NCBI RefSeq assembly: GCF_022524345.1
Contig: NZ_JAKWJU010000002.1
Location: forward strand, 1,302,001 to 1,366,000
Length of the DNA: 64,000 nucleotides
Origin: Streptomyces marispadix
Lineage (GTDB): Bacteria > Actinomycetota > Actinomycetes > Streptomycetales > Streptomycetaceae
Direction: 5' to 3'
Below the pieces are notes generated by a model. The model did not search any database and had not been told where the DNA came from. It was given only the letters and a program-made list of their open reading frames with translations. The position numbers and the translations under genes were made by a program. Each line of letters begins with the position of its first letter. Position 1 is the first letter of the stretch. Positions 10,733 through 63,102 of this stretch are shown piece by piece.

Positions 10733-12214
10733 ATGACGTACACCGACGACCGCAGCGGCACCGGCCGGCCCGCCGACTCCCCGTTCCCCCTCAACACCCG
10801 CAATCTGCCTCCGCCCCAGGTACGGGAGCTGCCTCCCCCGCCCCGTCAGACCTGGAAGATCATCGGCCCCGGCATCGTCGGCGCCGGTGTGGGCCTCGCC
10901 TCCGGCGAGTTCATCCTCTGGCCGTACATCGCCTCGCAGGCCGGTCTCGTGTTCCTGTGGGGCGCCGTCGTCGGAGTCGTCACCCAGTGGTTCCTCAACA
11001 TGGAGATCGAGCGCTACACGCTCGCCACCGGGGAGACCGCCGTCACCGGCTTCAACCGCTACTGGCGCCACTGGGGCGCGGTCATGGTCGTACTGACCTA
11101 CGCGGCGAACCTCTGGCCGGGCTGGGTGACCAGCTCCGCCACCATGGCCTCCTACGTCTTCGGCGGCAATCCCACGCTGATCGCGCTCGTCCTGCTGCCG
11201 TGCATCGGCGCGATCCTCACGCTCGCACCCGTCGTCTACACGGCGCTGGAACGGCTGCTGTTCCTGAAGGTCGCGGTGATCGGCGGGTTCTTCGCGCTCG
11301 CTGTGATCTTCGCGGTGAAGGCGTCGAGTTGGGCCGACCTGCCCCAAGGCGCCACGCACATAGGGCAGTTCCCCAGCGAGCTGGGCGTGGCGGTGCTGAT
11401 GGGAGCACTCGCATACGCGGGAGCCGGCGGCGGTCAGAACCTCTGCCAGAGCAACTGGATCCGCGACAAGGGCTTCGGCATGGGCCACTACGTGCCCCGC
11501 CTGGTCAGCCCCGTCACCGGCAAGGAGGACACCGCTGCGGCGGCCACCGGCAACGCCCCGGGAGCCACCTCCGGCTACGTCTTCACACCCGACGCGCAGA
11601 ACATGGCGCGCTGGAAGCGCTGGTGGCGCTTCGCCAACACCGAACAGGCCCTGACGTTCGTCCTGGTCACGGTCCTGACCATCGTGCTCTCCTCCCTCCT
11701 GGCGCACTCCACGCTCTTCGGCTCCGAGGGCCTGGCCAACGACGTCAGCTTCCTCCAGGACGAGGGCGAGGCGCTGAAGTCGCAGGTCGGCTCCTGGTTC
11801 GGCGTGCTCTTCTGGCTGATCGGGGCGTTCTCGCTGTTCAGCGCGGCGGTAGGCATCGTCGACTACACGAGCAGGCTCGCGGCGGACGTCCTCAAGTCCA
11901 CGTATCTGCCCCGCTCCCGCGTCTCCGAGAGCCGGCTGTACTTCTGGCTGGTGTGGGGCCTCGTCGTCATCGGCATGGCGATCCTGCTGCTCGGCATCGA
12001 CCAGCCGCTGGTGCTGCTGGTGATCTCCGCGTGCGTCGCCGGCCTGATGATGTTCGTCTACGGCGGCCTGCTGCTCTACATCAACCGCAAGGCGCTTCCC
12101 GCTCCGATCAAGGTGCGGGGGTACCGGGTGGCGGCGCTGGTGTGGGTGGTCGTGCTGTTCGGCGTGCTGTCCGTGCTGACGGTGCGGCAGCAGATCCTGG
12201 ACGCGTTCGGCTGA
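10733..12214 (+). CDS. Nramp-superfamily transporter lacking canonical metal motifs
   Basis: A 493-residue integral membrane protein with 11-12 hydrophobic segments. The first, GPGIVGAGVGLASGEFILWP, aligns with Nramp TM1, but the DPGN metal-binding motif is replaced by ASGE. The TM6 MPH motif is likewise absent (GALAYAGAGGGQ). A ~50-residue Ala/Gly-rich loop lies in the middle. ATG 10733 has GAGAGG upstream. Databases often call such proteins divalent metal transporters, but without the ligand residues the substrate is doubtful. It is a single gene, with a terminator hairpin 70 bases downstream. Confidence 0.75.
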   Translation: MTYTDDRSGTGRPADSPFPLNTRNLPPPQVRELPPPPRQTWKIIGPGIVGAGVGLASGEFILWPYIASQAGLVFLWGAVVGVVTQWFLNMEIERYTLATGETAVTGFNRYWRHWGAVMVVLTYAANLWPGWVTSSATMASYVFGGNPTLIALVLLPCIGAILTLAPVVYTALERLLFLKVAVIGGFFALAVIFAVKASSWADLPQGATHIGQFPSELGVAVLMGALAYAGAGGGQNLCQSNWIRDKGFGMGHYVPRLVSPVTGKEDTAAAATGNAPGATSGYVFTPDAQNMARWKRWWRFANTEQALTFVLVTVLTIVLSSLLAHSTLFGSEGLANDVSFLQDEGEALKSQVGSWFGVLFWLIGAFSLFSAAVGIVDYTSRLAADVLKSTYLPRSRVSESRLYFWLVWGLVVIGMAILLLGIDQPLVLLVISACVAGLMMFVYGGLLLYINRKALPAPIKVRGYRVAALVWVVVLFGVLSVLTVRQQILDAFG

Positions 12215-12283
12215 CGGCCAGGGGAAGCCCTCGCAGCTTCTCCGACGCCGTCGGCCGACGCACTCCCCGACCGCAAACGACCT

Positions 12284-12311
12284 GCGGCGGGCGCCTATTG
12301 ACGCCCGCCGC
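12284..12311. terminator. Hairpin between convergent genes
   Basis: GCGGCGGGCG (12284-12293) pairs perfectly with CGCCCGCCGC (12302-12311) around an 8-base loop. It lies between the Nramp-like gene and the small membrane protein gene and could serve both strands. Confidence 0.65.
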
Positions 12312-12362
12312 GGAGTCGGCGCAATTCGCCGCGAGGTGTCGCAGCCTCAGCGTCGCCCGCGC

Positions 12363-12584
12363 CTACAGGTGCATGCCGTTCACCGAACTAACCATCGCCG
12401 TCAGCGTGTTCACGACCCACTTGCCGAACTCCGTCGGCGCGAGGAGTATCCCGAAGACCGTCACGATGAGGACGGTCTCCCTCTCGTCCTTCCTGCTCCT
12501 GGCCTCAGTGCGCCGTCTCAGCCGAAGGAAGATCCAGACCCCCAGGAGCAACGTGACATCCAGCGTGACGACCAGCCCACCCAT
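12363..12584 (-). CDS. Small two-TM membrane protein
   Basis: A 73-residue protein starting at ATG 12584 behind a clear GGGAGGGG site. Two hydrophobic helices (GGLVVTLDVTLLLGVWIFL, and VLIVTVFGILLAP with an amphipathic continuation) flank a short basic loop, RLRRRTEARSRKDERE. No family is recognised. It is convergent with the Nramp-like gene and sits 160 bases downstream of the UvrA-like gene. Confidence 0.6.
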   Translation of the reverse strand: MGGLVVTLDVTLLLGVWIFLRLRRRTEARSRKDERETVLIVTVFGILLAPTEFGKWVVNTLTAMVSSVNGMHL

Positions 12585-12744
12585 GAACCCCTCCCTGTGC
12601 GGCCGTGGGCAATCGTTCCACTGGTGATGTACCGGCTTTATCCGCTTCACCAACCATGGCCTGACTCATGCCGGTAATGGCGGAATCTCTGAGCGGGGAA
12701 CGCCTGCGGCGGCCAACTCCGGCGCCACCATGGCGCCTTGCCGC

Positions 12745-15003
12745 TCAGCGCGAGCGACCACCCCCCGCACCGGCCAGCGCCCGCCCCGTAGGCGTCGTGC
12801 TGTCCTCGCAGTCGGCGACATGGCCCTCGAAGAGGACCGTTCCCCCGTGTCGGCCCGGCCCCGGGCCGAGGTCGACGAGCCAGTCGGCATGGCGGACGAC
12901 GTCGAGGTCGTGCTCGATCACGACTGCCGTGTGGCCCTGTCCGACGAGCCGGTCGAGGACGTTCAGGAGCGTGCCCACGTCGTCCATGTGCAGGCCGGTC
13001 GTGGGCTCGTCCAGTACGTACGTCGTGGGCCGCTCCGCCTGGCGCAACTCCTTGGCGATCTTGACGCGTTGGCACTCTCCGCCGGACAGCGTGCTCAGGG
13101 ACTGCCCCAGCCGCAGATAACCCAGACCGACCGCGGCGAGCTGCTCCAGGGCGCGGGCGATGCCCTGGTCGGGCAGCCTTGCGACGGCCTCCTCCACGGT
13201 GAGCCCCCCGACGTCGGCGATCGACAGCCCGTCCACGGTGTGGGCGAGCGCCTCGGGGGTGAAACGCCGGCCCCGGCACGTATCGCAGACGACCTCCTGG
13301 CCGTCCATGAAGGCGAGATCGGTGTAGACGACCCCGAGCCCCTTGCAATCGGCGCAGCCACCCTCGGAGTTGGCGCTGAAGAGACCCGCGGGGACGTGGT
13401 TGTGCCTGGCGAACAGCCTGCGGACCGCGGGCGCGATGCCCGTGTAAGTGACGGGCGTGGAGCGCCTGTTGGCGCTGACCGGCCTCTGGTCGATCACGGT
13501 GGCGCCGTGCTGGGCCACCAGCTCCTCGGCGAGGCTGGACTTGCCGGAGCCGGCCACCCCGGTGAGCACGGTCATCACGCCCGCCGGGAAGCGCACGGTC
13601 ACGTCCCGCAGATTGTTGCGACGGGCCCCGGCGACGGTGAAGTGCCCCGTGGCGGCACGCGGTTCGCGCTTGAGCGGCCGTCTCCGCGCCAGGGCCCGCC
13701 CGGTCGGCGTACCGGCGTCGCGGAGCCGTGCGTAGCTGCCCTGGAACACCAGCCGTCCGCCGCCGGCGGCGCCCGCGCCCGGCCCGATCTCGATCACCTG
13801 GTCCGCGCGGGACATGACCGCGGGATCGTGCTCGACGACGAGGACGTTGTTGCCGCTGTCGCGAAGGCTCTCCAGCAGCTCGACCATGGACTCCACGTCG
13901 GTCGGGTGCAGCCCAACGGTCGGTTCGTCGACGACGTACGTCATCTCCGTGAGGGAGGACCCCAGGTGCCGCACGGTCTTGATCCGCTGTGACTCGCCGC
14001 CGGAGAGGGTCGTGGTCGCGCGGGACAGCGTGAGATAGCCGAGCCCGATCGTGATCATCGCCTCCAGTCGTGCCGTCAGCGCCGCGACCGCGGGCGCCAC
14101 ACGGGCAGAGGTGATCTCCCTTACGAGCCCGACCAGTTCGGTGATCTCCATGCGGGCCATCTCGCCGATGGTCCGGTCGAGCACGGTGGCCGTGCGTGCG
14201 GCCTCGCAGAGCCGGTCTCCGTCGCACTCCGGGCAGGTCTCGGCCCGCGTGAAGCGGCGGATCGCCTCCTGCTTGCGCTCCGACAGGTCGTCGGATGTGT
14301 GCAGATAGATCCGCTCGAACCGCTCGACCACCCCCTCGTAGCCCTTGGGTGGCTTCCGTCCCAGTCGCGCCGCCGCCTCACCGCCGTACAGCAGCGCCTC
14401 CCGTTCGTACGGCCTCCACTCCCGCAGCGGCGTCCCGGCGTCGAAGCTGCCGATGTCGGCGTACTGCGAGTACCAGTAGCCGCCGTTGCCGAAGCCGGGC
14501 AGCAGGATCGCGCCCTCGGCGAGGGACTTGTCCAGGTCGAGGAAGCGCTCGACCGCGCTCACCACGATCTCCCCGAGGCCGGAGCAGGACGGGCACATGC
14601 CGCTCGGGTCGTTGAAGGAGAAGCGGTTCGATTCGCCGACGTAGGGGCTGCTGAGCCGGGAGAACAGCAGCCGCAGATACGTCCAGGAGTCCGTGATGGT
14701 GCCGACGGTCGAGCGGGCGTTCCCGCCGATCCTGCGCTGGTCGATGACGACCACGGGCGTCAGGCCCCCGATGTGCTCGACCGGGGGCCGGGTCCACTTC
14801 GCCAGCCGGTTCCTCGCGAACGGCGGGAAGGTCTCGTTGAGTTGATAGCCCGCCTCCGCGGCGATCGTGTCGAACACCAGCGACGACTTTCCCGAACCGG
14901 ACACCCCGGCGAAGACGACGAGTCGGTTGCGCGGGATGTCGACGTCCACGCCGTCGAGGTTGTTCGTACGGGCCCCGCGAAGGCTGATGTTCCTATCGGT
15001 CAT
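12745..15003 (-). CDS. Class II UvrA-like ABC ATPase
   Basis: A 752-residue UvrA paralogue with two ABC modules: Walker A GVSGSGKSS near residue 33 and GVAGSGKSS in the second half, with signatures LSGGESQR and LSGGECQR. A CPSC zinc-finger element follows residue 135 and CxxC pairs recur later. At ~750 residues it is about 200 shorter than true UvrA and lacks room for the UvrB-binding domain, which is typical of class II UvrA and drug-resistance relatives such as DrrC. It is not associated with uvrB or uvrC. It starts at 15003, 62 bases from the divergent WYL regulator, which may control it. Confidence 0.88.
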   Translation of the reverse strand: MTDRNISLRGARTNNLDGVDVDIPRNRLVVFAGVSGSGKSSLVFDTIAAEAGYQLNETFPPFARNRLAKWTRPPVEHIGGLTPVVVIDQRRIGGNARSTVGTITDSWTYLRLLFSRLSSPYVGESNRFSFNDPSGMCPSCSGLGEIVVSAVERFLDLDKSLAEGAILLPGFGNGGYWYSQYADIGSFDAGTPLREWRPYEREALLYGGEAAARLGRKPPKGYEGVVERFERIYLHTSDDLSERKQEAIRRFTRAETCPECDGDRLCEAARTATVLDRTIGEMARMEITELVGLVREITSARVAPAVAALTARLEAMITIGLGYLTLSRATTTLSGGESQRIKTVRHLGSSLTEMTYVVDEPTVGLHPTDVESMVELLESLRDSGNNVLVVEHDPAVMSRADQVIEIGPGAGAAGGGRLVFQGSYARLRDAGTPTGRALARRRPLKREPRAATGHFTVAGARRNNLRDVTVRFPAGVMTVLTGVAGSGKSSLAEELVAQHGATVIDQRPVSANRRSTPVTYTGIAPAVRRLFARHNHVPAGLFSANSEGGCADCKGLGVVYTDLAFMDGQEVVCDTCRGRRFTPEALAHTVDGLSIADVGGLTVEEAVARLPDQGIARALEQLAAVGLGYLRLGQSLSTLSGGECQRVKIAKELRQAERPTTYVLDEPTTGLHMDDVGTLLNVLDRLVGQGHTAVVIEHDLDVVRHADWLVDLGPGPGRHGGTVLFEGHVADCEDSTTPTGRALAGAGGGRSR

Positions 15004-43212: not shown

Positions 43213-43452
43213 AGAGACTTGGGGCACCGTGACCCGGGCTTCACGCTGAGGACGTACCCGCGTCTCATGCCGACAGCCAGGCACGTAGGCGGCGGGCCGT
43301 CGACGGGACACCCCGCGGCGCGACCGTCGGCGGCGAACCGGAGGCCACTCAGCTCGACGCTCCGCGCACGAACGGCCGTGGGCCGCACCTCCCAGAGCGG
43401 GAAGTGCGGCCCACGGCCCGTTACGGCCCAGGAGAGCGAACGGGCGCTCTGA
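43213..43452 (+). pseudogene. C-terminal remnant of a tyrosine recombinase (integrase)
   Basis: The frame encodes LGHRDPGFTLRTYPRLMP, matching the last active-site block of phage-type tyrosine integrases: the H of LGH and the nucleophilic Y of RTYxRLM. Everything upstream (the Arg and catalytic domain) is missing; the frame starts just after the QGGG gene. It shows that an integrated element once ended here. Confidence 0.65.
43374..43418. terminator. Strong 15-bp hairpin after the integrase relic
   Basis: GGCCGTGGGCCGCAC (43374-43388) pairs perfectly with GTGCGGCCCACGGCC (43404-43418) around a 15-base loop. No T-run. Could act on either strand. Confidence 0.6.
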
Positions 43453-43802
43453 CCTGCGTCGTTTCCAGCGGTCGAAGTACAGCCGGGAAACCATGTCGAC
43501 CTGCGGGGCCCGGCATGCGCAGTGGCCGGTGCACAACGGGTGCACATGGTGAGTTCACCAGCGTCGTCCTGCCGAAGGCGAACTGGGACGCCGAGGTCAC
43601 AACCGGCAGTGCACACGCGGTTCTTACGCTCCGACGTGGCGGCCGTGAAGACCCCCCGGCTCAATCGGTCCGCCGAAGGCGACTCGGAAGGCGCCCCTGC
43701 ACGTAGCCACAAGGGAGGCCCCATCCGGCGGGTGCGCCGCCCCTCACGGGCCGAACTCCAGCGCAACGCCGATCGGTTGCACGACAACCCCAATGGCGTG
43801 GT

Positions 43803-50070: not shown

Positions 50071-50472
50071 TCAGATTGCGGTCTCGGACACCAGCGTTGT
50101 CCGCACACCCTCGACGCGGACAGACTCGGCGGTGAGGTGAAGCGACGAGCCTTCGTTCTCCGCCACTACGCTCACCCCGGCCGCAGCCGGGGTGAGTTCG
50201 AGAGTGGGTGCCGGGAGTTCCCAGCCGTTCAGCGCGACCTTGGTGATCTCCTCGCATACGAGGTAGAAGGTGAGGCTGTTGAACGGCTTGGCTTCCCACT
50301 CCGGGTGGGGACGGTCCGGCAGGTCGCCGGTGCTGAGGCCGAGGGTGGCGGAGGTGCCGCGTTCGTCGAAGTGCAGGTAGTGGAGCTTGCAGCGTTCCAG
50401 TGCGGGGGCGGTGGAGTACACGTCGGTCAACCCACTGGCGTCGGCGAGGAGTTCGGTCCAGTCAGCGGGCAT
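50071..50472 (-). CDS. Imm50-like immunity protein
   Basis: A 133-residue protein directly downstream of the Rhs toxin gene. It resembles immunity protein 50: LTDVYSTAPALERCKLHYLH, then PFNSLTFYLVCEEITKVALN and a C-terminal beta region. It shares order and motifs with the gene upstream (TDLYGQFPSYDRLRIRSVNV), so the two are diverged duplicates. It overlaps that gene by 11 bases. Likely role: neutralise the toxin C-terminal domain in the cytosol. Family call is by pattern. Confidence 0.65.
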   Translation of the reverse strand: MPADWTELLADASGLTDVYSTAPALERCKLHYLHFDERGTSATLGLSTGDLPDRPHPEWEAKPFNSLTFYLVCEEITKVALNGWELPAPTLELTPAAAGVSVVAENEGSSLHLTAESVRVEGVRTTLVSETAI

Positions 50473-50956
50473 AGAAGGTCTCCGTGGTCGTCGCTGGCTC
50501 GCTGGTGCCGTGCAGCTTGGTGTCCAGCCTGCTCAGGTACGTGTACTCGGGCTCGTCGGCCGCGGCCCGGAATGCGCTGATGTGGCGGACGACGAACTGC
50601 GGGTTGGCCTGGAAGGTCAGCTCGATGCCCGTGCCGTTCAGGCGGACCTCGGTCAGCCGGTCGCTGACCGGCTGTGCGTCGAGCCGGGCCTCGGCCGGCG
50701 GGCTCCACCGGGCCAGCACGAGGTGCTCAACGGCGAGGAATTGGAGGTGGCACTGGACGGTGTCGAATCCGGCAGCCACCCATTCCTCCGGCGGCTCGGC
50801 AGGGAACTCCGGGAGGTCGACCCGCAGCATCAGCGTCGGCCCGAACGGGCTCACGTTCACCGATCTGATCCGCAGTCGGTCGTAGCTGGGGAACTGACCG
50901 TACAGGTCGGTCAGTTGCTGAGGGTTGGCCGGGTGGAGTGCGGTGTCAGCGGTCAT
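50462..50956 (-). CDS. Imm50-like immunity protein, first copy
   Basis: A 164-residue protein whose ATG at 50956 overlaps the end of the Rhs gene (stop 50946), the usual coupling of toxin and cognate immunity gene. TDLYGQFPSYDRLRIRSVNV and AGFDTVQCHLQFLAVEHLVL align with the second immunity gene. Being closest to the toxin it is the more likely cognate inhibitor; the second may protect against a related toxin. Confidence 0.65.
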   Translation of the reverse strand: MTADTALHPANPQQLTDLYGQFPSYDRLRIRSVNVSPFGPTLMLRVDLPEFPAEPPEEWVAAGFDTVQCHLQFLAVEHLVLARWSPPAEARLDAQPVSDRLTEVRLNGTGIELTFQANPQFVVRHISAFRAAADEPEYTYLSRLDTKLHGTSEPATTTETFYAR

Positions 50957-53900
50957 AGTAGTAGTGCTCCTGAGCGCCCGGGATCTGTCCGTTCCGGGTG
51001 TCCTCGAACGGTCGGACGTGGACGTGTGGTGGCTGGTAGCCGTCCTCACCCGGTTTCTGGTGGCCGAACCAATGGTCCTGGAAGACCACCATGTCGTTGC
51101 CGTTGGGGTGCTCGTAGGTCTCTTCGGTGTAGAAGATCGGCGAGCCGTCATCGTTGAGGAGCTGCTTGCTGCCCGCGTACTCCGGGCCGCGGGCGGAGAC
51201 CCATTCGTCGACGTCGATGGGTTCGGCGCCCTCGGGGATGCCGGCATCGCGAAGGGCCTCTGCCTTGGCTTCCTCGTAGGTCTTGCCGGCCTTGGGAATC
51301 TCGTCGTCGCAGCCCTCCAGGCCCAGAGGGTCGAGCCAGCTCCAAGGGTTGACCACCCATGCAGCGGGGTTCGGGGCGGGGGCGAGGCCCAGGGGGTCCG
51401 GGCTGCTGTACCGGGCTGTGTCGGGGTCGTAGTGGCGGTAGAAGTTGTGGTGGAGGCCGGTCTCGGGGTCGGCGTACTGGCCCGGATGCCGCAGGGGTGT
51501 GTATGCGGTGGCGTCGCGGTTCCAGCGTGTGGTGCCCCAGACGGTGGCGCGGGCCTGCCAGGCGATCTCCCCCGCCTCGCTGATCAGCTCCGTCGGTGTG
51601 CCGACCAGGTCGGTCGCGATGGCGAAGAAGCGCGAGTCGACCTCTTCTTCGGTGAGGTGCTTACGCTCGTACTGGACGAGCGGGATGTGACCCTTGTGCT
51701 CCCAGGTGCTGGTGACGCCGGTGACCGTCGAATGTTCCTCGGCCAGGCGTGTGCCGTCCCAGGTGAAGTACACGGCCTCCACGGGGGTTTCGCCGTCGTC
51801 GCCGAGGCGCTGCTTGGTGGTGCGACGTCCGAGCGCGTCGTACGTGTACACCCAGCGGTTGCCGTCGGGAGTGGTGCAGGCGACGAGGCGGTCGAGGGCG
51901 TCCCACTCATAGCGCCAGGTGTCGGGCTTGCGGGACAGGCGCTTCTTCTGGCGCAGCACGGTGCGGCCGGCCGCGTCGTACTCGTAGCGGACGTCGCCCG
52001 CAGTGAGCAGCCGGGTGCCGCTGTAGTCGCGGTCACCGAGCGCTTCGGCCCGGCCGGCTTCGGCTTCGGTACCAGGATGCCGAGGTCTGATTGCCGATCG
52101 GGTCGTAGGTGTAGGACTCGGCCCAGTCCTGGGCGGAGACGCCCAGGGGCCTGCCCAGCGGGTCCAGGTCGAATTCCCGGCTCACGCCGGTCAGGTCGTC
52201 GGTGATGGATGCGAGGTGCCCGTCGGGGCGGTAGTCGTAGGTGCGGGAGGTGAGGGTGCTTCCGGGCACCGCTGCCGCGCGGGCGACCAGGCGGCCGGAG
52301 GGGTCCCAGCTGGAGACGATGGCCACCGGGTTGTCCTCGTGGCCGAAGCCGCGGGCGGTCTCCCGGCCGACGGCGTCGTGCTGGAAGAGCAGGGCGTGCC
52401 CGTCCAGATCTAGCTGCTGAGTGCGGCCGGCGGCGTCGTAGCCGTAGTTGGTGGTGGCCCCGGTCGGCGTGGTGCGCAGGATGCGGCGGCCCTGTGCGTC
52501 GTAGCGGTAGTGGACGGTGCGGCCGTCGACGTTCTCGCTCAGGACCCGCCCGCGCGCATCGCGCTCCACCGTCACCGTCGAGGTGTCGTCGGCTGCTTCG
52601 AGGAGGCGCCCGGCGCGGTCGTAGCGGTAGGTGGTGACGGAGCCGGCGGCGTCGCGTCGCAGTACCCGTCCGAACGGATCGCGCTCGTAGGTGATCCGCT
52701 CGCCGGCATGGGTGTGGTCCTGGACGTGCGGTGGCCGCAGGCATCGTGGGTGTAGGTCTGGGTGCGCCCGTCGAAGTCGGTCTCGGAGATCAGACGGCCA
52801 GTGGGGCTGTAGGTGTACTCCCATGTCAGCCCCGTGGGGCCGGTGACCTTGGTGAGCCGCAGCTCGGTGTCGTGGTCGAAGGTGTAGGTGGCTCCGTCCG
52901 GGGTGGTGCGGGAGACCAGCTTGTCGAAGTGGGTGTGACCGAAGGCCGTGACGCCGCCGATGGCGTTGACGTGCTCGACGAGGTTGCCTTCCCCGTCCCA
53001 GCGCCAGCTCTCCCGCGCCCCGTCGGGCAGCGTGCGGGCGGTGAGCTTGCCCTCGACGCTGTGCTCCAGCCGCGTGACCGACCCCAGCGCGTCGGTCATG
53101 CGCGTGGGCCGACCGAGAGCGTCACGCTCCAACGCAGCGGTATGACCGTGCGGATCGGTGTAGGAGATCGGCAGACCGGCAGCATTGTTCCGGTACCGGG
53201 AGATCTCCCCTGCCGTGCCGGTGATCGCACAGACGGCCCCGGTGCTGTCGTACTCGAAGCGGGTGACGGCGCCGTCCGGTGCGGTGCGCTCCGTCAGATT
53301 GCCCAGGGCGTCGAAGGCTTGTCGCCAGAGGGAGCCGTCTGCGGTGGTGATCTCGACCGGCAGGTTCAGGTAGTTGTATGCCGCCGACGCGACCGTGCCG
53401 TCCGGGGCGTGGACTTCGGTCACGTTGTGCCGGGAGTCGTAGACGTAGCGCGTCTCGTGGCCGGCCGGGTCGGTCCTGCTCAGCACGTTCCCGTACTCGT
53501 CCCACTCCCGCCGCGTGGTGTTGCCGAGCGGGTCGGTCTCGGCCACCGGCTGGTGCCGCTCGTTGAACTGGTAGACCGTGGCGGCACCTTGGGAGTTGGT
53601 GTACGTGGTGGTGCGCTGGACACGGTCGTAGACGAACCGGGAAGACAGAAAGCCGTCCGGCCCGATCGTACGGACGACACGGTGCTGCTCGTCGTACTCA
53701 TACCGGAAGGTCGAAGCGTTCCGGTCCGTCCAGGAAGTCATGCGGCCCAGGTCGTCGTAGCCGAACTCCAAAGCTTTCCCAGAGGAGTTGACCACGTGCG
53801 TGACGTTGCCGCCGCCCTGGAACCGGTACGACTTCAGCTCCACGGGGGGCCCCTCAGGCGCATCGAGCGTGAGCCGGGTGCACCGGCCGTTCTCGACGTG

Positions 53901-55583
53901 GACGCGGACAACGTAGCCCCCGGTATGGGCCAGTGTTGTCGGAGTGCCGTCCGCCTGGCGGGAGATGGCGATCTCGTTGCCGTTCCGGTCGGTGATGTGC
54001 CGGAGCCAGAACCAGCCCGACTTCGACGGGCTGTCGGCGAAGACGCGAACCCGGCCCGTCCGCGGGTCGGTGATCTCGTACGTGGACTCGCCCAGCGCCC
54101 CGGTGCCGGCGTGGGTCAGGGGGAGCAGCTTCCCCGTCACGGGATAGACAGGCTCCTCGCTTCCCGGGGCCGGGAGCTCGGCGTAGCGCACGAGCGAGCC
54201 GTCCTCGCGGGCCCAGACCACGCCGTCCTTCGTGACCTCAAGTCGCTCATCGAGGGTGGAGGCCCAGGACGGGCCGAAGAACTGCCCGTACCGATACGAG
54301 GACAAGTGCGCACGCACGAGCCGCAGCGGAAGCACCCCGGGCAGATCGACATCCACCTGCTTGTGCAGCAGCTCACCGCTGGCAACGTCAACGGGATCGT
54401 TCTCGCAGAACCGGTCGTCGCTACCGCGACCTGTCAAGTGCGGGTCGTCTGTCGCGCCGTTCGTGGAGCCGGGCCTAACGTCCGACTTGCCCCCCGGGCT
54501 GCCGGGGCCGTTGCCGTCCTTGCCCTTACCGATCTTCGTCAGGTTGTCGGCGACGGAGTTCTCGTTGTCGCGGTGGCGTTTGGCCATGGAGCGGACGCCG
54601 CCGGGGACGCCCTCGCCGACGTGTTTGGCGACCTTCTTCAGCGCCTTCTCGGAGCCGTCGAGCGCGCCGTGGAGGACGCTGTCGAAGGCCTGGGTGAAGG
54701 GGTCGCGGCCCTTGGTGCGGCCGAAGGCGCCCTTCGCGCGGCCCAGTGGGGCAAGGGAGTTGGTGTGCAGGTCCGAGCCGTGGCGGGAGAGTTTCTCCGC
54801 ACCGTTGTCGAACTCGTCCGGGTCGATGCGCATACGGCCGCCGCCCGCGCCGCCGCCACCGCCGCCCGCGCCTCCGGAGCCCCCTCCGGCGCCGCCCGCG
54901 CCGCCGCCGCCCGCCGACGCGAGGTTCATCGCCCCCTTGCCGCCGTCGTGTCCGCCGCCGCCCGCGTCGCCGCCGCCCCCGGCTCCGCCGCCCTCGCCCG
55001 GCGGCAGATGGATCGCGTCGTCGGCGAGATCGAGGATCATGTCCTCGGTCATCTTCTCCAGCTTGCCGGTGACCGGTTCGGTGACCTCGGCCATCAGCCG
55101 GGAGATGATCTCCTCCTCCGCCTCCTTGATGATCCGGCGGATCAACTCCCGCATCGCCGCGGTCTCCGCGGCGCCGATCAACGCCGACAGGCCGCCGGTG
55201 ACCACCGACAGACCGATGGAGATGCCGATCGAGGCCGCCATCGCGCCCAGCTCGATCTCGGCCTTGACCTTCATCCCGTAGATGATGTCCGCGACCACGT
55301 CGCACGCCGTCGCGAAGAGCCGTGCGACCTCGGGCACCTTGTCCAGATGAGAGCCCTTGACCTTGCCCCAGTGCTCCTGGAGCGCGTCGACCGCGTAACC
55401 CTCGCTGGAGGCGAGGATGCGGTTCACCGCAGCGTGCGCCTCACCGCCGTGACCCTCGAACTTCTCCGCGAACTCCCGCATGGCGTCGGCCATTTCGCGG
55501 TAGTCGTCCTCGTCCACGTTGGGCCAGTTGATCCCGATGAAATCGAGGATCTCATCCAGCCAGCCCGGCAGAACGTAACCCAT
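50946..55583 (-). CDS. Rhs/YD-repeat polymorphic toxin, two frame breaks
   Basis: A polymorphic toxin of about 1,540 residues if both breaks are repaired. N-terminus: WXG100-like helical export domain (residues ~1-210), Gly-rich linker, DUF6531-type segment (DPVDVASGELLHKQVDVDLP), then many YD repeats, the core-ending DPLGL, and a ~115-residue toxin domain ending near 50946 with GH...PPHVHVRP, consistent with an HNH/Endo VII-type nuclease. Frame A holds to about 52720, frame B encodes good YD repeats to about 52055, then frame C to the stop. Net shift is zero. Two immunity genes follow. Likely secreted by a type VII-like route. Confidence 0.82.
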
Positions 55584-56741: not shown

Positions 56742-57338
56742 GTGGCATATAACCTCCTTGTGGTCGATTTTGAGCAAGCTTTTGTTCTACACAACGACTA
56801 CAAAACTGCAGAGCGGGAGTTGTACGTTCTGTCACTTCGCATTCTAGCGTTTCCGATTGTAATTGCTGGAGCACTACTATCCGCTGAGCTAATATCATCA
56901 ACGGGCAACCTCGGCTCTGCATTAAAGCTTCCAGTGATTTGGTTGGCGTTGATGGCGTCTGGACTGCTCAACTTTGTCGTTGTTCGTGCCTACGTAGTTA
57001 CTGATCGAGTACAGACCGAGTCAAAACACCAAGTAAATCGGCTGCGATCTCTCTATCTCGTTTCCCTTGCTGAACATTTTCCCGACGGCTGGGAACCTGT
57101 CTGGGGATCAACGAACGCGTACCTGGACACCAAAATAAAGCTCAAGGCGGCGCTGCTCACGCCATTCATCTTGGGTACGATCAACGCTCTCTACGTCGCC
57201 GTTGGGCTGGACAGTTTGCTCAAGTACCAGGTTTCGATTTCTCATCACGTCGCAATTGCGGCATTCGCAGGAGTGGTCTATCTACTTCTTCAACTTGAGT
57301 TAACCTGGAACGTAATTCGCCGAGCAATCCGACACTGA
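56742..57338 (+). CDS. Four-TM membrane protein of the low-GC island
   Basis: About 198 residues with four hydrophobic segments (YVLSLRILAFPIVIAGALL, LPVIWLALMASGLLNFVVV, LLTPFILGTINALYVAVGL, AIAAFAGVVYLLLQL) and a polar middle with YKTAERE and QTESKHQVNRLRS. No family recognised. Base composition is much less GC-rich than neighbours, and third positions are not GC-biased. The start is uncertain: GTG 56742 or GTG 56760, neither with a good ribosome site. It ends 11 bases before the next gene, so an operon is clear. Confidence 0.6.
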   Translation: MAYNLLVVDFEQAFVLHNDYKTAERELYVLSLRILAFPIVIAGALLSAELISSTGNLGSALKLPVIWLALMASGLLNFVVVRAYVVTDRVQTESKHQVNRLRSLYLVSLAEHFPDGWEPVWGSTNAYLDTKIKLKAALLTPFILGTINALYVAVGLDSLLKYQVSISHHVAIAAFAGVVYLLLQLELTWNVIRRAIRH

Positions 57339-57349
57339 AAGGAACGAGA

Positions 57350-58549
57350 GTGAGTAACCCCACTGACGTCCCCGTTTTCTTTGCGCCAGGCCAAACAGAT
57401 ACCAATCAATACGACCGGCAGGCGCTTACGTACTTGGTAAGGGAATGCCATTCTTCAGTCGAGCATACCTTGCAGTTATTAGAGTCGAAGTCATTTGAAT
57501 TTCATACCACACAGACCTTGCACAGAGACGCGATCGACGTTGAACTGATCTACCGGCAATGCATTCCGGCCGCATGCATCGCGACGCGCTATTATTTGCC
57601 AATCGAAGAGGTCGCCGACTATCTAACGCTATTCACCTCATGTCAGACACTCATTCTTAATCACATCGATCGACACCTTGACCTATCCGCTTCGTACACC
57701 ATTCGTGATCCACAGCATTTATTGGCGGACGTTCGCTCGGTCACTTGCTACGCAGTTGCCTCACTGTATGAGGGGATGACGTTTGCCCGAAAGGGCCCCG
57801 GTCCTGCGGCCGCGGTCTCACACATGGCTGATGTCAGCAGCAAGATAATTCAATCTATGCATCACAATTACGCGACGCGCTTTGATAGCGCATATCTCAA
57901 GCAACCAGAGAAACTGACGGAACTCTACCGAGACGAAACTCTGTCTCGCCATCTCGGTTCAGGGTTCTATAGCTCTAGCGTCCTGGGATTGAATGCGTAC
58001 TTCGATTTGCCTCAGCCGAGCAACCTTCCCGATATTCTTCGCGACATGCGTAGGCTTAGGCAGCGCGTAGATGAGTTGTCTGATGAGTTGTCTGATCTTT
58101 TCGAGGACACTGTCACCGGCCTCCTCACCTACCCGGTCGCTAAACTATTGATTTCACCTGAGTATCATGAGTCTGCGGCTAAGACGATTCTTGCCATATG
58201 GGAGGAGAGCGAGAAAATAGTTGCCCAGCACCGTGGCCGTCCCGACCACGCCAACAAAGCCATGCGAACGAGCGGGCATCTCTCGAAATCCTTTAGGGAT
58301 CTGATGGATTTGTCGATCGACGCAGGCGTACTGGAAGAGTGTCGAATCGAGGCGCATAAATTATGGTGTCGGATTCGGGGAGAACTCCAGGGGTTGGATT
58401 CCGCGATTGCTGATCCCTTGGCGATAGTGGTGGATCTCAAGCGTGCTTTCCTTGAACGCTTATCAGAAGCCGCTTGGAATGACGACCCGCCATCGCATAC
58501 GTTTGCAGACATCCGCAGGCAAGTCCTTGAAGGGAGAGGTCCCAATTAG
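57350..58549 (+). CDS. Degenerate class I isoprenoid-synthase-fold protein
   Basis: A 399-residue all-helical protein; GTG 57350 has AAAGGAACGAG upstream. The C-terminal half has RQRVDELSDELSDLFEDTVT then GLLTYPVAKLL, which lines up with the second Asp-rich motif and KRTYP strand of trans-prenyl synthases. In the first half LILNHIDRHLDL sits where the first DDxxD should be but is degenerate. So it may bind prenyl diphosphates with changed chemistry, or be a non-enzymatic relative. Several TTA codons and low GC mark it as imported. The NUDIX gene overlaps its stop. Confidence 0.6.
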   Translation: MSNPTDVPVFFAPGQTDTNQYDRQALTYLVRECHSSVEHTLQLLESKSFEFHTTQTLHRDAIDVELIYRQCIPAACIATRYYLPIEEVADYLTLFTSCQTLILNHIDRHLDLSASYTIRDPQHLLADVRSVTCYAVASLYEGMTFARKGPGPAAAVSHMADVSSKIIQSMHHNYATRFDSAYLKQPEKLTELYRDETLSRHLGSGFYSSSVLGLNAYFDLPQPSNLPDILRDMRRLRQRVDELSDELSDLFEDTVTGLLTYPVAKLLISPEYHESAAKTILAIWEESEKIVAQHRGRPDHANKAMRTSGHLSKSFRDLMDLSIDAGVLEECRIEAHKLWCRIRGELQGLDSAIADPLAIVVDLKRAFLERLSEAAWNDDPPSHTFADIRRQVLEGRGPN

Positions 58550-59012
58550 CACTCATGTTGAGAATTCGGCGAAAGCAGTGATTGTCGAGGAGGGACGCGT
58601 TCTACTGATCCGCTATGAAGACTCCACGAGCATGGACCTCGGTACGTGGTATTCACTCCCAGGAGGTCGCCAATGCTTTGGAGAGACCATGGGTGAAGCT
58701 CTTGTCCGCGAGTGCAAGGAAGAGCTTGGCGCCGACGTTAGTGCTGGGCCACTGCTGTTTGTGCGCGAGTACATTCATGCGAGGCATTCACTGAAAGGGA
58801 CGGGCCGGGATCAGCACAAGATTGAATTCATGTTCAGCTGCATCCTCAATAGTCGGCCAGCGATGACGCTTGCGGCCGACAAGGACCAAAGCACCTTCGA
58901 ATGGGTCGACTTGGCCGCTCTCAGTGAAATCACGATTTTCCCGACGGGGTTGGGAGACCTGAAGGGGCTTCTGGAGAAGCCCAATTCAGTGTATTGGGGT
59001 GATACTTTCTAA
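58545..59012 (+). CDS. NUDIX hydrolase of the low-GC island
   Basis: About 155 residues with a perfect NUDIX box from G to G (GRQCFGETMGE...RECKEELG). NUDIX enzymes hydrolyse nucleoside or prenyl diphosphates. The start is unusual: ATT at 58545, five bases after GGGAGAGG and overlapping the previous stop (ATTAG), fits best; ATG 58479 lies inside the previous gene with a weak site. Paired with an isoprenoid-fold protein it might act on a prenyl or nucleotide diphosphate; this is inference. Confidence 0.8.
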   Translation: MSTHVENSAKAVIVEEGRVLLIRYEDSTSMDLGTWYSLPGGRQCFGETMGEALVRECKEELGADVSAGPLLFVREYIHARHSLKGTGRDQHKIEFMFSCILNSRPAMTLAADKDQSTFEWVDLAALSEITIFPTGLGDLKGLLEKPNSVYWGDTF

Positions 59013-59434: not shown

Positions 59435-59995
59435 ATGCCCTCTTCGCTGGACACACCTCGCGGCGCTGCCGAGCTGGCCGAGTCGTTGTTGCCTCCGCTC
59501 GGGAACAGGTGGCTGCACACGCAGGCAGTCGCGGAGCGCGCTCGGGAGGCATCGCCAGCAGTGCCGGAGGATGAGCGGGACCTCCTTGTCGCCTCTGCCT
59601 GGCTGCACGACATCGGGTATGCCCCCGAGTTGCGGGAGACCGGCTTTCATCCCCTCGACGGTGCGCGCTATCTGGAGTCGCTCAATGCACCCCGCCGGCT
59701 TGTCTGTCTGGTCGCACATCACTCCGGCGCGGTGTACGAGGCAGAACAGCGCGGCCTGGTTGCCGAGTTGAAGCCATACGAGCGCGAGGACACTCCGATC
59801 CTGGACGCTCTGATCTTCGCCGACATGACGACTGGCCCTGCCGGTGAGCGGTTCGACTTCGACCGCCGCATGGACGAGATCCTCGTGCGCTACGAGCGAG
59901 GGAGCGAAGTACACAACGCCATCAGCAACGCACGGCCGTACCTTGGGGCGGCGGTGCAGCGGACGCTTGACCGCCTGTCTCCTCACGGTGAGTAG
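59435..59995 (+). CDS. HD-domain phosphohydrolase
   Basis: A 186-residue HD-superfamily protein. Metal ligands: H in WLHTQAVAE, HD in SAWLHDIGYAPE, H in VAHHSG and a later D (FADMT). Such proteins are common near one end of Streptomyces integrative elements. Convergent with the Pif-like NUDIX gene, with a six-base gap. Substrate unknown, probably a nucleotide. Confidence 0.85.
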   Translation: MPSSLDTPRGAAELAESLLPPLGNRWLHTQAVAERAREASPAVPEDERDLLVASAWLHDIGYAPELRETGFHPLDGARYLESLNAPRRLVCLVAHHSGAVYEAEQRGLVAELKPYEREDTPILDALIFADMTTGPAGERFDFDRRMDEILVRYERGSEVHNAISNARPYLGAAVQRTLDRLSPHGE

Positions 59996-60001
59996 GCTGA
60001 A

Positions 60002-60472
60002 TCACCCGATGTAGGGCTCTGCCCGCTCGCTGAGGCCGTGGTCGATCCGCAGTCGCATCGACGGGTGGATGTTCAGCTCGTCCAGCCGCTCCGGGGCGAC
60101 GAAGGCAACTTCCTTGCTCTCGCTGCTCGTTCGCAGTCGGCCGCCGACGATGCGGGCGGAGAAGCAGATCGAGAACTGTTGTCGTACCTCGCCGTCGTCG
60201 TACGCCATGACGTGCGCGGGGTCGGTGAACAGGCCCACCAGGCCCGTGACTTCGATGTCGAACCCGGTCTCTTCCTTCGTCTCGCGTACGGCCGCGTCGG
60301 GCGCGGACTCGCCGACGTCGACACCGCCACCCGGCAGAGCCCATAGGCCGTTGTCCGTCTTGTGGATCAGCAACAGCTTTCCGGATTCGTTCCTTGCTAC
60401 GGCTGTGACCGATGGAACGATACTGTTCGCCTGCGGTGCGTCCGGGTCGTTGAAGTAGTCCACGCGAGCCAT
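60002..60472 (-). CDS. NUDIX-domain protein, Pif-like immunity factor
   Basis: A 156-residue protein with a full NUDIX box (GGGVDVGES...RETKEETGF). In pSAM2 the immunity factor Pif carries a NUDIX motif and prevents redundant transfer into cells that already hold the element; position and size fit that role. It follows the XRE gene on the same strand. Enzymatic activity is likely but the substrate is unknown. Confidence 0.75.
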   Translation of the reverse strand: MARVDYFNDPDAPQANSIVPSVTAVARNESGKLLLIHKTDNGLWALPGGGVDVGESAPDAAVRETKEETGFDIEVTGLVGLFTDPAHVMAYDDGEVRQQFSICFSARIVGGRLRTSSESKEVAFVAPERLDELNIHPSMRLRIDHGLSERAEPYIG

Positions 60473-60503: not shown

Positions 60504-61235
60504 TTAGGCGGGTGTCGAGCGCTCCCAGGCGTAGTCGAAGCTGCGCATGTAGTGCCGGAATGTCCTTGCTCCGGGGAGGTAGCGGAAGTGCAGGACTGGG
60601 TTCTGTCCTGCTGGTGCTCCTAGGACGTGCGGGTTGACAAGCATGTCGTCATCGAACCGGTAGATCGAGTTGTAGAGGATCGTGTCGTGGAGCCGCAGTT
60701 CGACGCCCGGTGTGCCGGTCGCCGGAGAGATGTAGTGCTGGCTCAGCTTCGCGCGTGCAGCGAGGCTGTCCCCGATCCCTTCCTCTTCGCCGCGCTGTTG
60801 GATCATCACTGACTCGGGGTCGCCTAGCAGAACACGGATCTTCGCCCCCGCCTTGGCCTTCTCGGCGAACTGGTCGGCAAGGTCCGGATGGCTGTCGAAG
60901 AGGAACAGTCCTGCGTAGACCAGGATTTCGACCTGGCTTGTCGCTTTCTCGATCAGCGACTCCCACAAGTGGCCTGGCACGGCCCCGCGGTTCGGGTAGA
61001 ACGTGACCAGCTCGGACGTGCTCGCCGTCTCGGCCTGCTTCTCGACGGCCGGCCACAGATAGACCTCGTCCACTCCGAGGAAACTGGCCGCCTTCCAGCG
61101 GTGGCTGCGGTGCGGTGTCCGCTCCAAGGTGATCCAGCGCTCGACGCTCTTGGGGTCCACTCCGACGTGCTCCGCCAGCGAAGGGACCGTCTCGCCCTTT
61201 GCCGAAATCGCCGCACGCAGACGCTCGTTCGCCAT
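60504..61235 (-). CDS. XRE regulator with DUF5919/PLD-like C-terminal domain
   Basis: A 243-residue protein: an HTH at residues ~5-55 (SLAEHVGVDPKSVERWITLE), then a domain starting LWESLIEKATSQVEILVYAG and including KIRVLLGDPES, similar to PLD-fold DUF5919 domains without a visible HxK catalytic motif. Probably the element's repressor, sensing a ligand or DNA damage. The divergent promoter region carries five ACGT cores. Confidence 0.8.
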   Translation of the reverse strand: MANERLRAAISAKGETVPSLAEHVGVDPKSVERWITLERTPHRSHRWKAASFLGVDEVYLWPAVEKQAETASTSELVTFYPNRGAVPGHLWESLIEKATSQVEILVYAGLFLFDSHPDLADQFAEKAKAGAKIRVLLGDPESVMIQQRGEEEGIGDSLAARAKLSQHYISPATGTPGVELRLHDTILYNSIYRFDDDMLVNPHVLGAPAGQNPVLHFRYLPGARTFRHYMRSFDYAWERSTPA

Positions 61236-61749: not shown

Positions 61750-63102
61750 ATGAACACTCTTCTGATCGCCGCTGTGATCGCTGGTGGGCTGGCGCTGCTC
61801 CGGTGGCGCCGACCCGCCTGGTTCTGGCTATGCCTCGGGCTTCCGCTGGCCGCCGCGCGCGTGCTGCTCCGCTACGGCTCGGTCATGGAAGCCTGCGGGC
61901 TGACGGTCCCGCCGTCCCGCATGCGGCTCGCCGTGGCTCGGGCTACCCGCACCGAGGTTCCGTCCTCGCGAGTGCCGCGCATCATCCGTCTGACGCCGAC
62001 CCGTACGGGCCTCGTCCTCCGGATCAAGATGCGGCCCGGACAGGACGCCTTCGACTTCATCGCCTCCTCCGACCGGCTCCGGCACTCCTTCAAGATGCAG
62101 GGCGTGACCGGCCGGGAGGTGAAGGCCGGTGTGGTCGAGCTGCGGATGACTGGATACGACGTGCTCAAGCGGGTCCAGATGCCCGCCAGGACCGAGACGA
62201 AGACGCTCCGCATCCCTGTCTCGCTCCGTGAGGACGGCTCGATCCACTACCGCGACTACCGGGAGGTCCCGCACTCGCTCAACATCGGCGCCACGCAGTC
62301 GGGTAAGTCCGTCTACCAGCGTCGGCTGGTGACCGAACTCGCCTCGCAGCCGGTCGCCTTGGCTGGCATCGACTGCAAGAACGGCGTGGAGCTGGCGCCT
62401 CTGGCCCGCCGCTTCTCCGCCCTCGCCTGCAACCCGGATGACGCGCTCGGACTCCTGGACGCGCTCCTCGACCGCATGGAAGGGATCTACGAGATCATCC
62501 GGCGCGAGCAGCGGATCAGTTCGGACGTGCCGGATGCGGAGATCACTGCCGACATCTGGGGCCTGCCTGAGCACCTGCGGCCCACCCCGGTCGTGCTGCT
62601 GGTGGACGAGGTCGCCGAACTCGCCCTCTTCGCCTCGAAGAAGGAAGAGAAGCGACGCGACGCCATCGTGACCGCCCTGGTGCGCCTGGCCCAGCTCGGA
62701 CGGGCCGCCGGTATCTACGTCGAGATCTGCGGGCAGCGCTTCGGTGCCGACCTCGGCAACGGAATCACCTTGCTCCGCTCGCAGTTGACCGGCCGCGTCT
62801 CGCATCGCGTCAACGACGAAGCCTCCGCCCGGATGGTCTTCGGCGACATCTCGCCTGACGCCATGGGCGCCACGGTGCAGATCCCGACCGACCGCCCCGG
62901 TACGGCCGTTGCTGCCGAGTCCTCCGGCGGCTGGGTCCTCACCCGCACCCCCTACACGACGCTCCGGCAGGCCGTGAACACCTGCAACCGCCATGCCGAG
63001 CTGACCCCGGAACTGCCCGAACTGGCCAACTGGCGCCCGGACCTCCGCATCTCCCTCGTCAAGACAGCAGCCGCCGACGAGCTGACGAGTCAGGCCGCCT
63101 GA
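61750..63102 (+). CDS. FtsK/SpoIIIE-type conjugative DNA translocase (TraB)
   Basis: A 450-residue double-stranded DNA pump of the TraB/TraSA type. N-terminal membrane helices (LLIAAVIAGGLALL, WFWLCLGLPLAAARVLL), then the motor with Walker A GATQSGKS and Walker B VVLLVDEVAEL, and a C-terminal winged-helix region for sequence recognition. It moves double-stranded element DNA into the recipient. ATG 61750 follows the SCO3933 stop by two bases. Confidence 0.9.
   Translation: MNTLLIAAVIAGGLALLRWRRPAWFWLCLGLPLAAARVLLRYGSVMEACGLTVPPSRMRLAVARATRTEVPSSRVPRIIRLTPTRTGLVLRIKMRPGQDAFDFIASSDRLRHSFKMQGVTGREVKAGVVELRMTGYDVLKRVQMPARTETKTLRIPVSLREDGSIHYRDYREVPHSLNIGATQSGKSVYQRRLVTELASQPVALAGIDCKNGVELAPLARRFSALACNPDDALGLLDALLDRMEGIYEIIRREQRISSDVPDAEITADIWGLPEHLRPTPVVLLVDEVAELALFASKKEEKRRDAIVTALVRLAQLGRAAGIYVEICGQRFGADLGNGITLLRSQLTGRVSHRVNDEASARMVFGDISPDAMGATVQIPTDRPGTAVAAESSGGWVLTRTPYTTLRQAVNTCNRHAELTPELPELANWRPDLRISLVKTAAADELTSQAA

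Follow-up and report, generated by a model that had tools for sequence, protein, structure and literature searches.

In CBASS and similar immune systems, a small-molecule synthase is coupled to a membrane effector. Isoprenyl diphosphate synthases of family PF00348 carry a first DDxxD motif, a second DDxxD motif and a lysine-bearing loop behind the second, and the NUDIX box follows the consensus GX5EX7REUXEEXGU.

In the available sections of PMC7194074, plant NUDIX enzymes are described that cut prenyl diphosphates to monophosphates. SLATT and Nudix both occur in conflict systems according to the sections of PMC7159879 at hand, from which the words "prenyl" and "isoprenoid" are absent; AICEs, Nudix and defense genes are treated in PMC11706625, whose available sections are likewise free of the word "prenyl." The accessible part of PMC3218068 gives the joint presence of Int, Rep and Tra proteins as the criterion for an AICE, describes an mdp-nud-xre gene cluster in these elements, and reports that pSAM2 owes conjugal immunity to its NUDIX protein Pif.

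Here we describe a three-gene unit (TM, Iso and NUDIX; Table 1) in a stretch of 64,000 nucleotides from Streptomyces marispadix, which is referred to as the window. The trio is a rare, co-inherited operon for an orphan four-segment membrane protein, a divergent family of predicted synthase fold with conserved acidic motifs, and a NUDIX hydrolase, and it is borne here by an AICE. An earlier note on this DNA had stated that the trio matches no known system, and this remained so in the libraries (Pfam, NCBIfam, PADLOC and PHROGs) and open-licence PMC papers searched; in that literature, the combination was not found described.

Results

Layout and composition of the trio

The three genes lie where the earlier note had placed them, and their packing is operon-like. 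The 11-base gap between TM and Iso was reproduced, but the overlap proposed between Iso and NUDIX is set by the start chosen for the latter, being 107 bases from the GTG at 58443 and ~70 bases from an in-frame ATG near 58479. The five Micromonospora NUDIX homologues described below start 8 residues ahead of the residues ENSAKA, which would place the start in the window at ~58536-58545. No in-frame ATG, GTG or TTG is present in the window at this position, nor any usual start codon at 58540-58560; the ATT at 58545-58547, which is in frame, overlaps the Iso stop and follows a ribosome-binding-like GGGAGAGG, can be read as a candidate start.

The composition of the trio is foreign to its host. 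As had been claimed, GC content is low: 51.8% in the trio region versus 68.4% in the window, a plain contrast that is free of gene-caller bias, and the lowest-GC stretch of 2,271 bases in the window (taken at steps of 250) starts at 56751. GC3 is 0.51 in TM, 0.57 in Iso and 0.62 in NUDIX versus 0.79-0.94 in the 43 other genes of the window, and the richness in TTA codons ascribed to the trio applies to TM (2 codons) and Iso (5) and not to NUDIX (0), versus 2 in 15,544 codons of the comparison genes, a set that is biased because the gene caller favors GC-rich third positions. The same caller was used for the element flank and for L002, L012, L013 and L014 among the Micromonospora loci.

Table 1. 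Positions of the trio, of motifs within Iso, and of genes and a proposed end of the host element, in window coordinates
Feature	Position	Strand	Description
TM	56742-57338	+	Four-segment membrane protein, 198 aa from GTG 56742, orphan family; from the ORF frame
Iso	57350-58549	+	399 aa, divergent; isoprenyl diphosphate synthase fold (predicted)
NUDIX hydrolase	58551-59012	+	ORF opens 58443; true start probably near 58536-58545
Iso first acidic motif	57668-57682	+	D107-R-H-L-D111 (DxxxD), at end of helix 85-108; alignment A1
Iso second acidic motif region	58058-58135	+	R237-Q-R...D245-E-x-x-D249-x-x-E-D253...T256-G257...Y261-P262
12-nt tandem duplication	58070-58093	+	In second motif of Iso; adds 4 residues; absent in the other 35 of 36 rows of A1
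HD-domain protein	59435-59995	+	Candidate mdp of AICE cluster, outside trio; PF01966, E 2.1e-7
Second NUDIX protein	60002-60472	-	Candidate nud/Pif-type AICE gene, outside trio; PF00293, E 2.5e-19
Putative HTH/PLD-like regulator	60504-61235	-	AICE cluster, outside trio; weak Pfam matches below cut-offs
FtsK/TraB-type transfer protein	61750-63102	+	AICE; PF01580, E 1.9e-36
AbiTii domain gene	67826-68632 (L039 14826-15632)		PF18864, E 2.5e-31; between integrase gene and proposed right end
Proposed left end repeat	43398-43484	.	Partner at 68712-68798 (L039 15712-15798), 3' end of gene read as glnA, outside window

Fold and motifs of Iso

Iso had been put forward as a degenerate isoprenoid-fold protein, with structure prediction of its 399 residues as a check. 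The predicted structure is an all-helical isoprenoid synthase fold, and the assignment of an isoprenyl diphosphate synthase fold to Iso is supported by this prediction. Taken together, the 36 Iso rows matched 11 families at E ≤ 1, and neither PF00348 nor PF00494 is one of them.

In alignment A1 (36 rows), D107, H109, L110 and D111 of the first acidic motif are kept in at least 90% of the Iso rows. The first and last Asp of this motif stand at canonical distance, the second Asp is replaced by Arg, and the DDxxD pattern is accordingly lost. Twenty columns are invariant: eight fall in H201-S209 (HLGSGFYxS, inside SRHLGSGFYSS of the window protein), ten in R237-P262 (R237, Q238, R239, D245, E246, D249, D253, G257, Y261 and P262), and the remaining two are R177 and Y193. 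E252 and T256 are nearly invariant. By profile alignment, the second motif lines up with FQxxDDLLD in canonical synthases; DExxD is retained, and the following loop, which bears the lysine in PF00348, is shorter. In the model of the window Iso, the helix is broken at residues 244-246, the site of the 12-nt duplication.

The fold therefore stands by prediction, but "degenerate" is too strong a word, because the residues that the family conserves best fall in the usual diphosphate and metal regions. As the acids seem to be kept and their surroundings changed, we prefer "remodelled."

NUDIX hydrolase and membrane protein

The third gene product belongs to the NUDIX family, as had been read from its translation (PF00293, E 2.5e-13), and its NUDIX box, GRQCFGETMGEALVRECKEELGA, is intact in the window copy and present in the five homologues, which are 55-59% identical to it in their alignment. 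Its closest solved relative is 2pqv, a MutT/nudix family protein (E 1.9e-11). In PADLOC 2023 it matched PDC-S07 alone, a model that was also matched by the second NUDIX protein; no model was found there at E ≤ 1 for TM or Iso.

Four hydrophobic segments, the number first suggested, were computed for TM (near residues 29-47, 63-81, 136-154 and 170-188). The TM family numbers 33 proteins: the entry for TM itself and 32 others, which are 54-69% identical over the covered part. The AF2 model (pLDDT 84.2) had no clear likeness to any solved protein in a PDB fold comparison. The TM rows gave weak Pfam matches alone, the best being MarC (E 2.5e-4, with 7 of the 33 rows matching); the 23 families that they matched include neither SLATT nor Cap15. 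With hhalign, the TM profile gave E 0.058 against SLATT_1 (reversed control 0.5) and E 0.37 against DUF4231 (reversed control 0.049). For the window copies of TM and Iso themselves, no Pfam, NCBIfam or PADLOC model was matched, and matches in PHROGs were at chance level at most.

Distribution and co-inheritance

A neighborhood search for the trio, which the earlier note had proposed, found the order TM-Iso-NUDIX to be identical in the window and at five Micromonospora loci (L002, L003, L004, L012 and L013). The Iso-NUDIX overlap is 4 bases long in four of these and 14 in L013. Between the window and the five homologues, TM is 60-63%, NUDIX 55-60% and Iso 40-45% identical, and Iso is also the most variable of the three among the Micromonospora loci.

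Among 354 Micromonosporaceae genomes, Iso was found in 6 (in one of these as a distant relative only; 5 candidates scored per genome) and TM in 5 (8 candidates per genome), these being exactly the genomes with a strong Iso match; the occurrence of TM without Iso was covered within these 354 genomes. Searches of 392 genomes from the genus and 396 from the phylum, with 4 candidates scored per genome, each found Iso once, in the window's own genome, and L012 and L013 came from a search with at most 11; because part of the first-look candidates was scored in each genome, distant relatives may be missed. For 15 TM/Iso pairs, the distances of the two proteins correlate (r 0.75; 0 of 5000 permutations); one pair is the window's own and 14 were matched by a proxy (contigs of equal length from a shared source), while beyond the window's own proteins 35 Iso and 32 TM were listed. 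The lysine- and asparagine-rich sequences of the relatives P0032 and P0035 suggest hosts outside the actinobacteria.

Neighbors at the Micromonospora loci were named from their translations, apart from genes with Pfam- or PADLOC-type matches. In Micromonospora, the trio sits at two or more distinct sites. It adjoins a putative proC gene in L012 and lies ~4 kb from it in L013; in L003 and L004, genes read as alcohol and aldehyde dehydrogenases follow directly on the other strand (~11690-14220). The last two loci are close copies (Iso 89% identical), and neighbors common to both therefore count little. In L002 (4478-11710), an Eco57I/DrmMI/type IIG-like methylase gene and then SLATT_2 stand beside the trio, together with a HAD protein and a weak PDC-S60 match, and an McrC-like fragment stands beside the trio in L013. 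With the AbiTii gene, ~9 kb off in the same element in the window, defense-type genes are thus near 3 of the 6 trio loci, a raw count. No additional gene was seen to accompany the trio at every one of the six loci.

A distant Iso relative is encoded at a further Micromonospora locus, L014 (23% identical over 303 alignment columns, E 1e-7; profile E 1.4e-11), with the motifs DILLD and DELMDxxED. This gene and that of another membrane protein, one with two hydrophobic segments, overlap (L014 9286-12036). Genes for a GHMP kinase, a radical SAM protein and a HAD protein are nearby. The tail of the L014 membrane protein is strand-rich by eye.

The host element

The trio had been likened to cargo beside a conjugative element. 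The association was borne out by matches to Phage_integrase, RepSA and FtsK_SpoIIIE, that is, to the three kinds of protein that together mark an AICE, but the trio would lie inside the element and not just beside it if the proposed end repeats are right. To the right of the FtsK-type gene are RepSA, a small HTH gene placed like that of an excisionase, and then the integrase and AbiTii genes. The genes for the HD-domain protein, the second NUDIX protein (31% identical to that of the trio) and the putative regulator would fit the mdp-nud-xre cluster as described in the accessible part of PMC3218068.

The two copies of the proposed end repeat, 25.3 kb apart, share an exact match of 22 bases and are identical in 90 of 105 aligned columns. 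No tRNA gene was found near them, and glnA may therefore be the attachment site. If the repeats are the ends, the element would measure 25.3 kb and include the trio, Rhs toxin genes and Imm50. The Rhs protein is encoded in two ORFs (50462-55583, minus strand), with a WXG100-like N-terminus and a Tox-HNH-EHHH tail followed by the Imm50 immunity gene.

Discussion

Between defense and lipid chemistry, our tentative preference, by a narrow margin, is for a mobile, membrane-acting conflict module, most likely directed against phage or a competing element. Iso would bind or make a prenyl (di)phosphate via metal ions bound at its two acidic motifs, and NUDIX would trim or destroy this prenyl diphosphate, so setting its level; the cleavage of prenyl diphosphates by plant NUDIX enzymes, known from the available sections of PMC7194074, makes this chemistry plausible. 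The four-segment protein, the most conserved of the three, would receive the product and act in the membrane as a gated pore or through a lipid change, and contact with the trigger would fall to the fast-evolving Iso. This proposal is favored over a metabolic one because of the mobility of the trio, its AbiTii, methylase, SLATT and McrC-like company at 3 of 6 loci, and the pattern of rates; the dehydrogenase neighbors in L003 and L004 and a neighbor count without a random-locus control weigh against it.

A lipid or terpenoid module with no immune role, to which we give real but slightly lesser credence, would have Iso make a short or unusual prenyl diphosphate from precursors of the host, NUDIX convert it to the monophosphate, and the four-segment protein anchor the pathway or move the product. 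It would account for the fold and acidic motifs of Iso, has its precedent in the plant conversion of prenyl diphosphate to monophosphate (PMC7194074, same sections), and could draw on the host, in which 5 matches to PF00348 and 3 to PF00494 might supply or share substrates; the alcohol and aldehyde dehydrogenase-like genes adjoining the trio in L003 and L004 also fit. That no further gene was seen to stay beside the trio at all six loci, that its distribution is patchy and mobile, and that the putative synthase evolves faster than TM and NUDIX all argue against such a pathway.

It is unlikely that Iso is a non-catalytic relative whose fold is kept to bind a ligand or to scaffold NUDIX and TM, so that it would sense but not synthesize. 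Canonically spaced Asp residues vary little or not at all in A1, and the same Asp pattern recurs in the distant relative of L014 with other neighbors, even though the 36 rows match no synthase profile, the first motif is without its second Asp, the loop behind the second motif is short, and this motif carries an insertion in the window copy. Least probable is that the trio serves the AICE itself, for instance by excluding a second element or altering the recipient membrane during conjugation: its place inside the element next to genes that fit mdp-nud-xre, and the conjugal immunity given by Pif in pSAM2 (PMC3218068, accessible part), speak for this, but the element already has another NUDIX gene (60002-60472), and no integrase, RepSA or FtsK was seen around the trios of L002, L012 and L013 in gene calls that were in part Pfam-checked.

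The conflict reading has a bolder form, which we regard as a long shot: a new immune or conflict module that would signal by an isoprenoid phosphate and not a nucleotide, with Iso making a prenyl messenger, NUDIX clearing it, and the four-segment protein as membrane executioner. On this view, the different membrane protein encoded with the L014 relative would look like a swapped effector. Should a prenyl phosphate turn out to serve a mobile bacterial module as signal or weapon, the immune second messengers known so far would be extended to lipid precursors; otherwise, there would still be an uncharted isoprenoid-synthase-fold family with an assayable NUDIX partner.

Comparison with known systems

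Any likeness of the trio to CBASS would be one of logic only, as the trio is without a nucleotidyltransferase. Iso shares its predicted fold with the isoprenyl (polyprenyl) diphosphate synthases of PF00348, but is 6-14% identical to them in alignments, with a weak HH probability (18-25%), DRHLD in place of DDxxD and a shortened loop after the second motif. Squalene and phytoene synthases (PF00494) resemble it in a DxxED-type second motif and a short loop before the proline (DVREDxxxGRxYLP), and the profile comparison is weak (E 0.07-0.17 versus ~0.3 for reversed controls). The trio NUDIX has PF00293 and the NUDIX box in common with 2pqv and differs in having TM and Iso as neighbors at each of the six loci seen. 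The host element is like the pSAM2-type AICEs described in the accessible part of PMC3218068 in its RepSA, tyrosine integrase, FtsK-type gene and HD-NUDIX-regulator genes; it is unlike them in its proposed ends at glnA, where no tRNA gene was found, and in carrying the trio and AbiTii as cargo.
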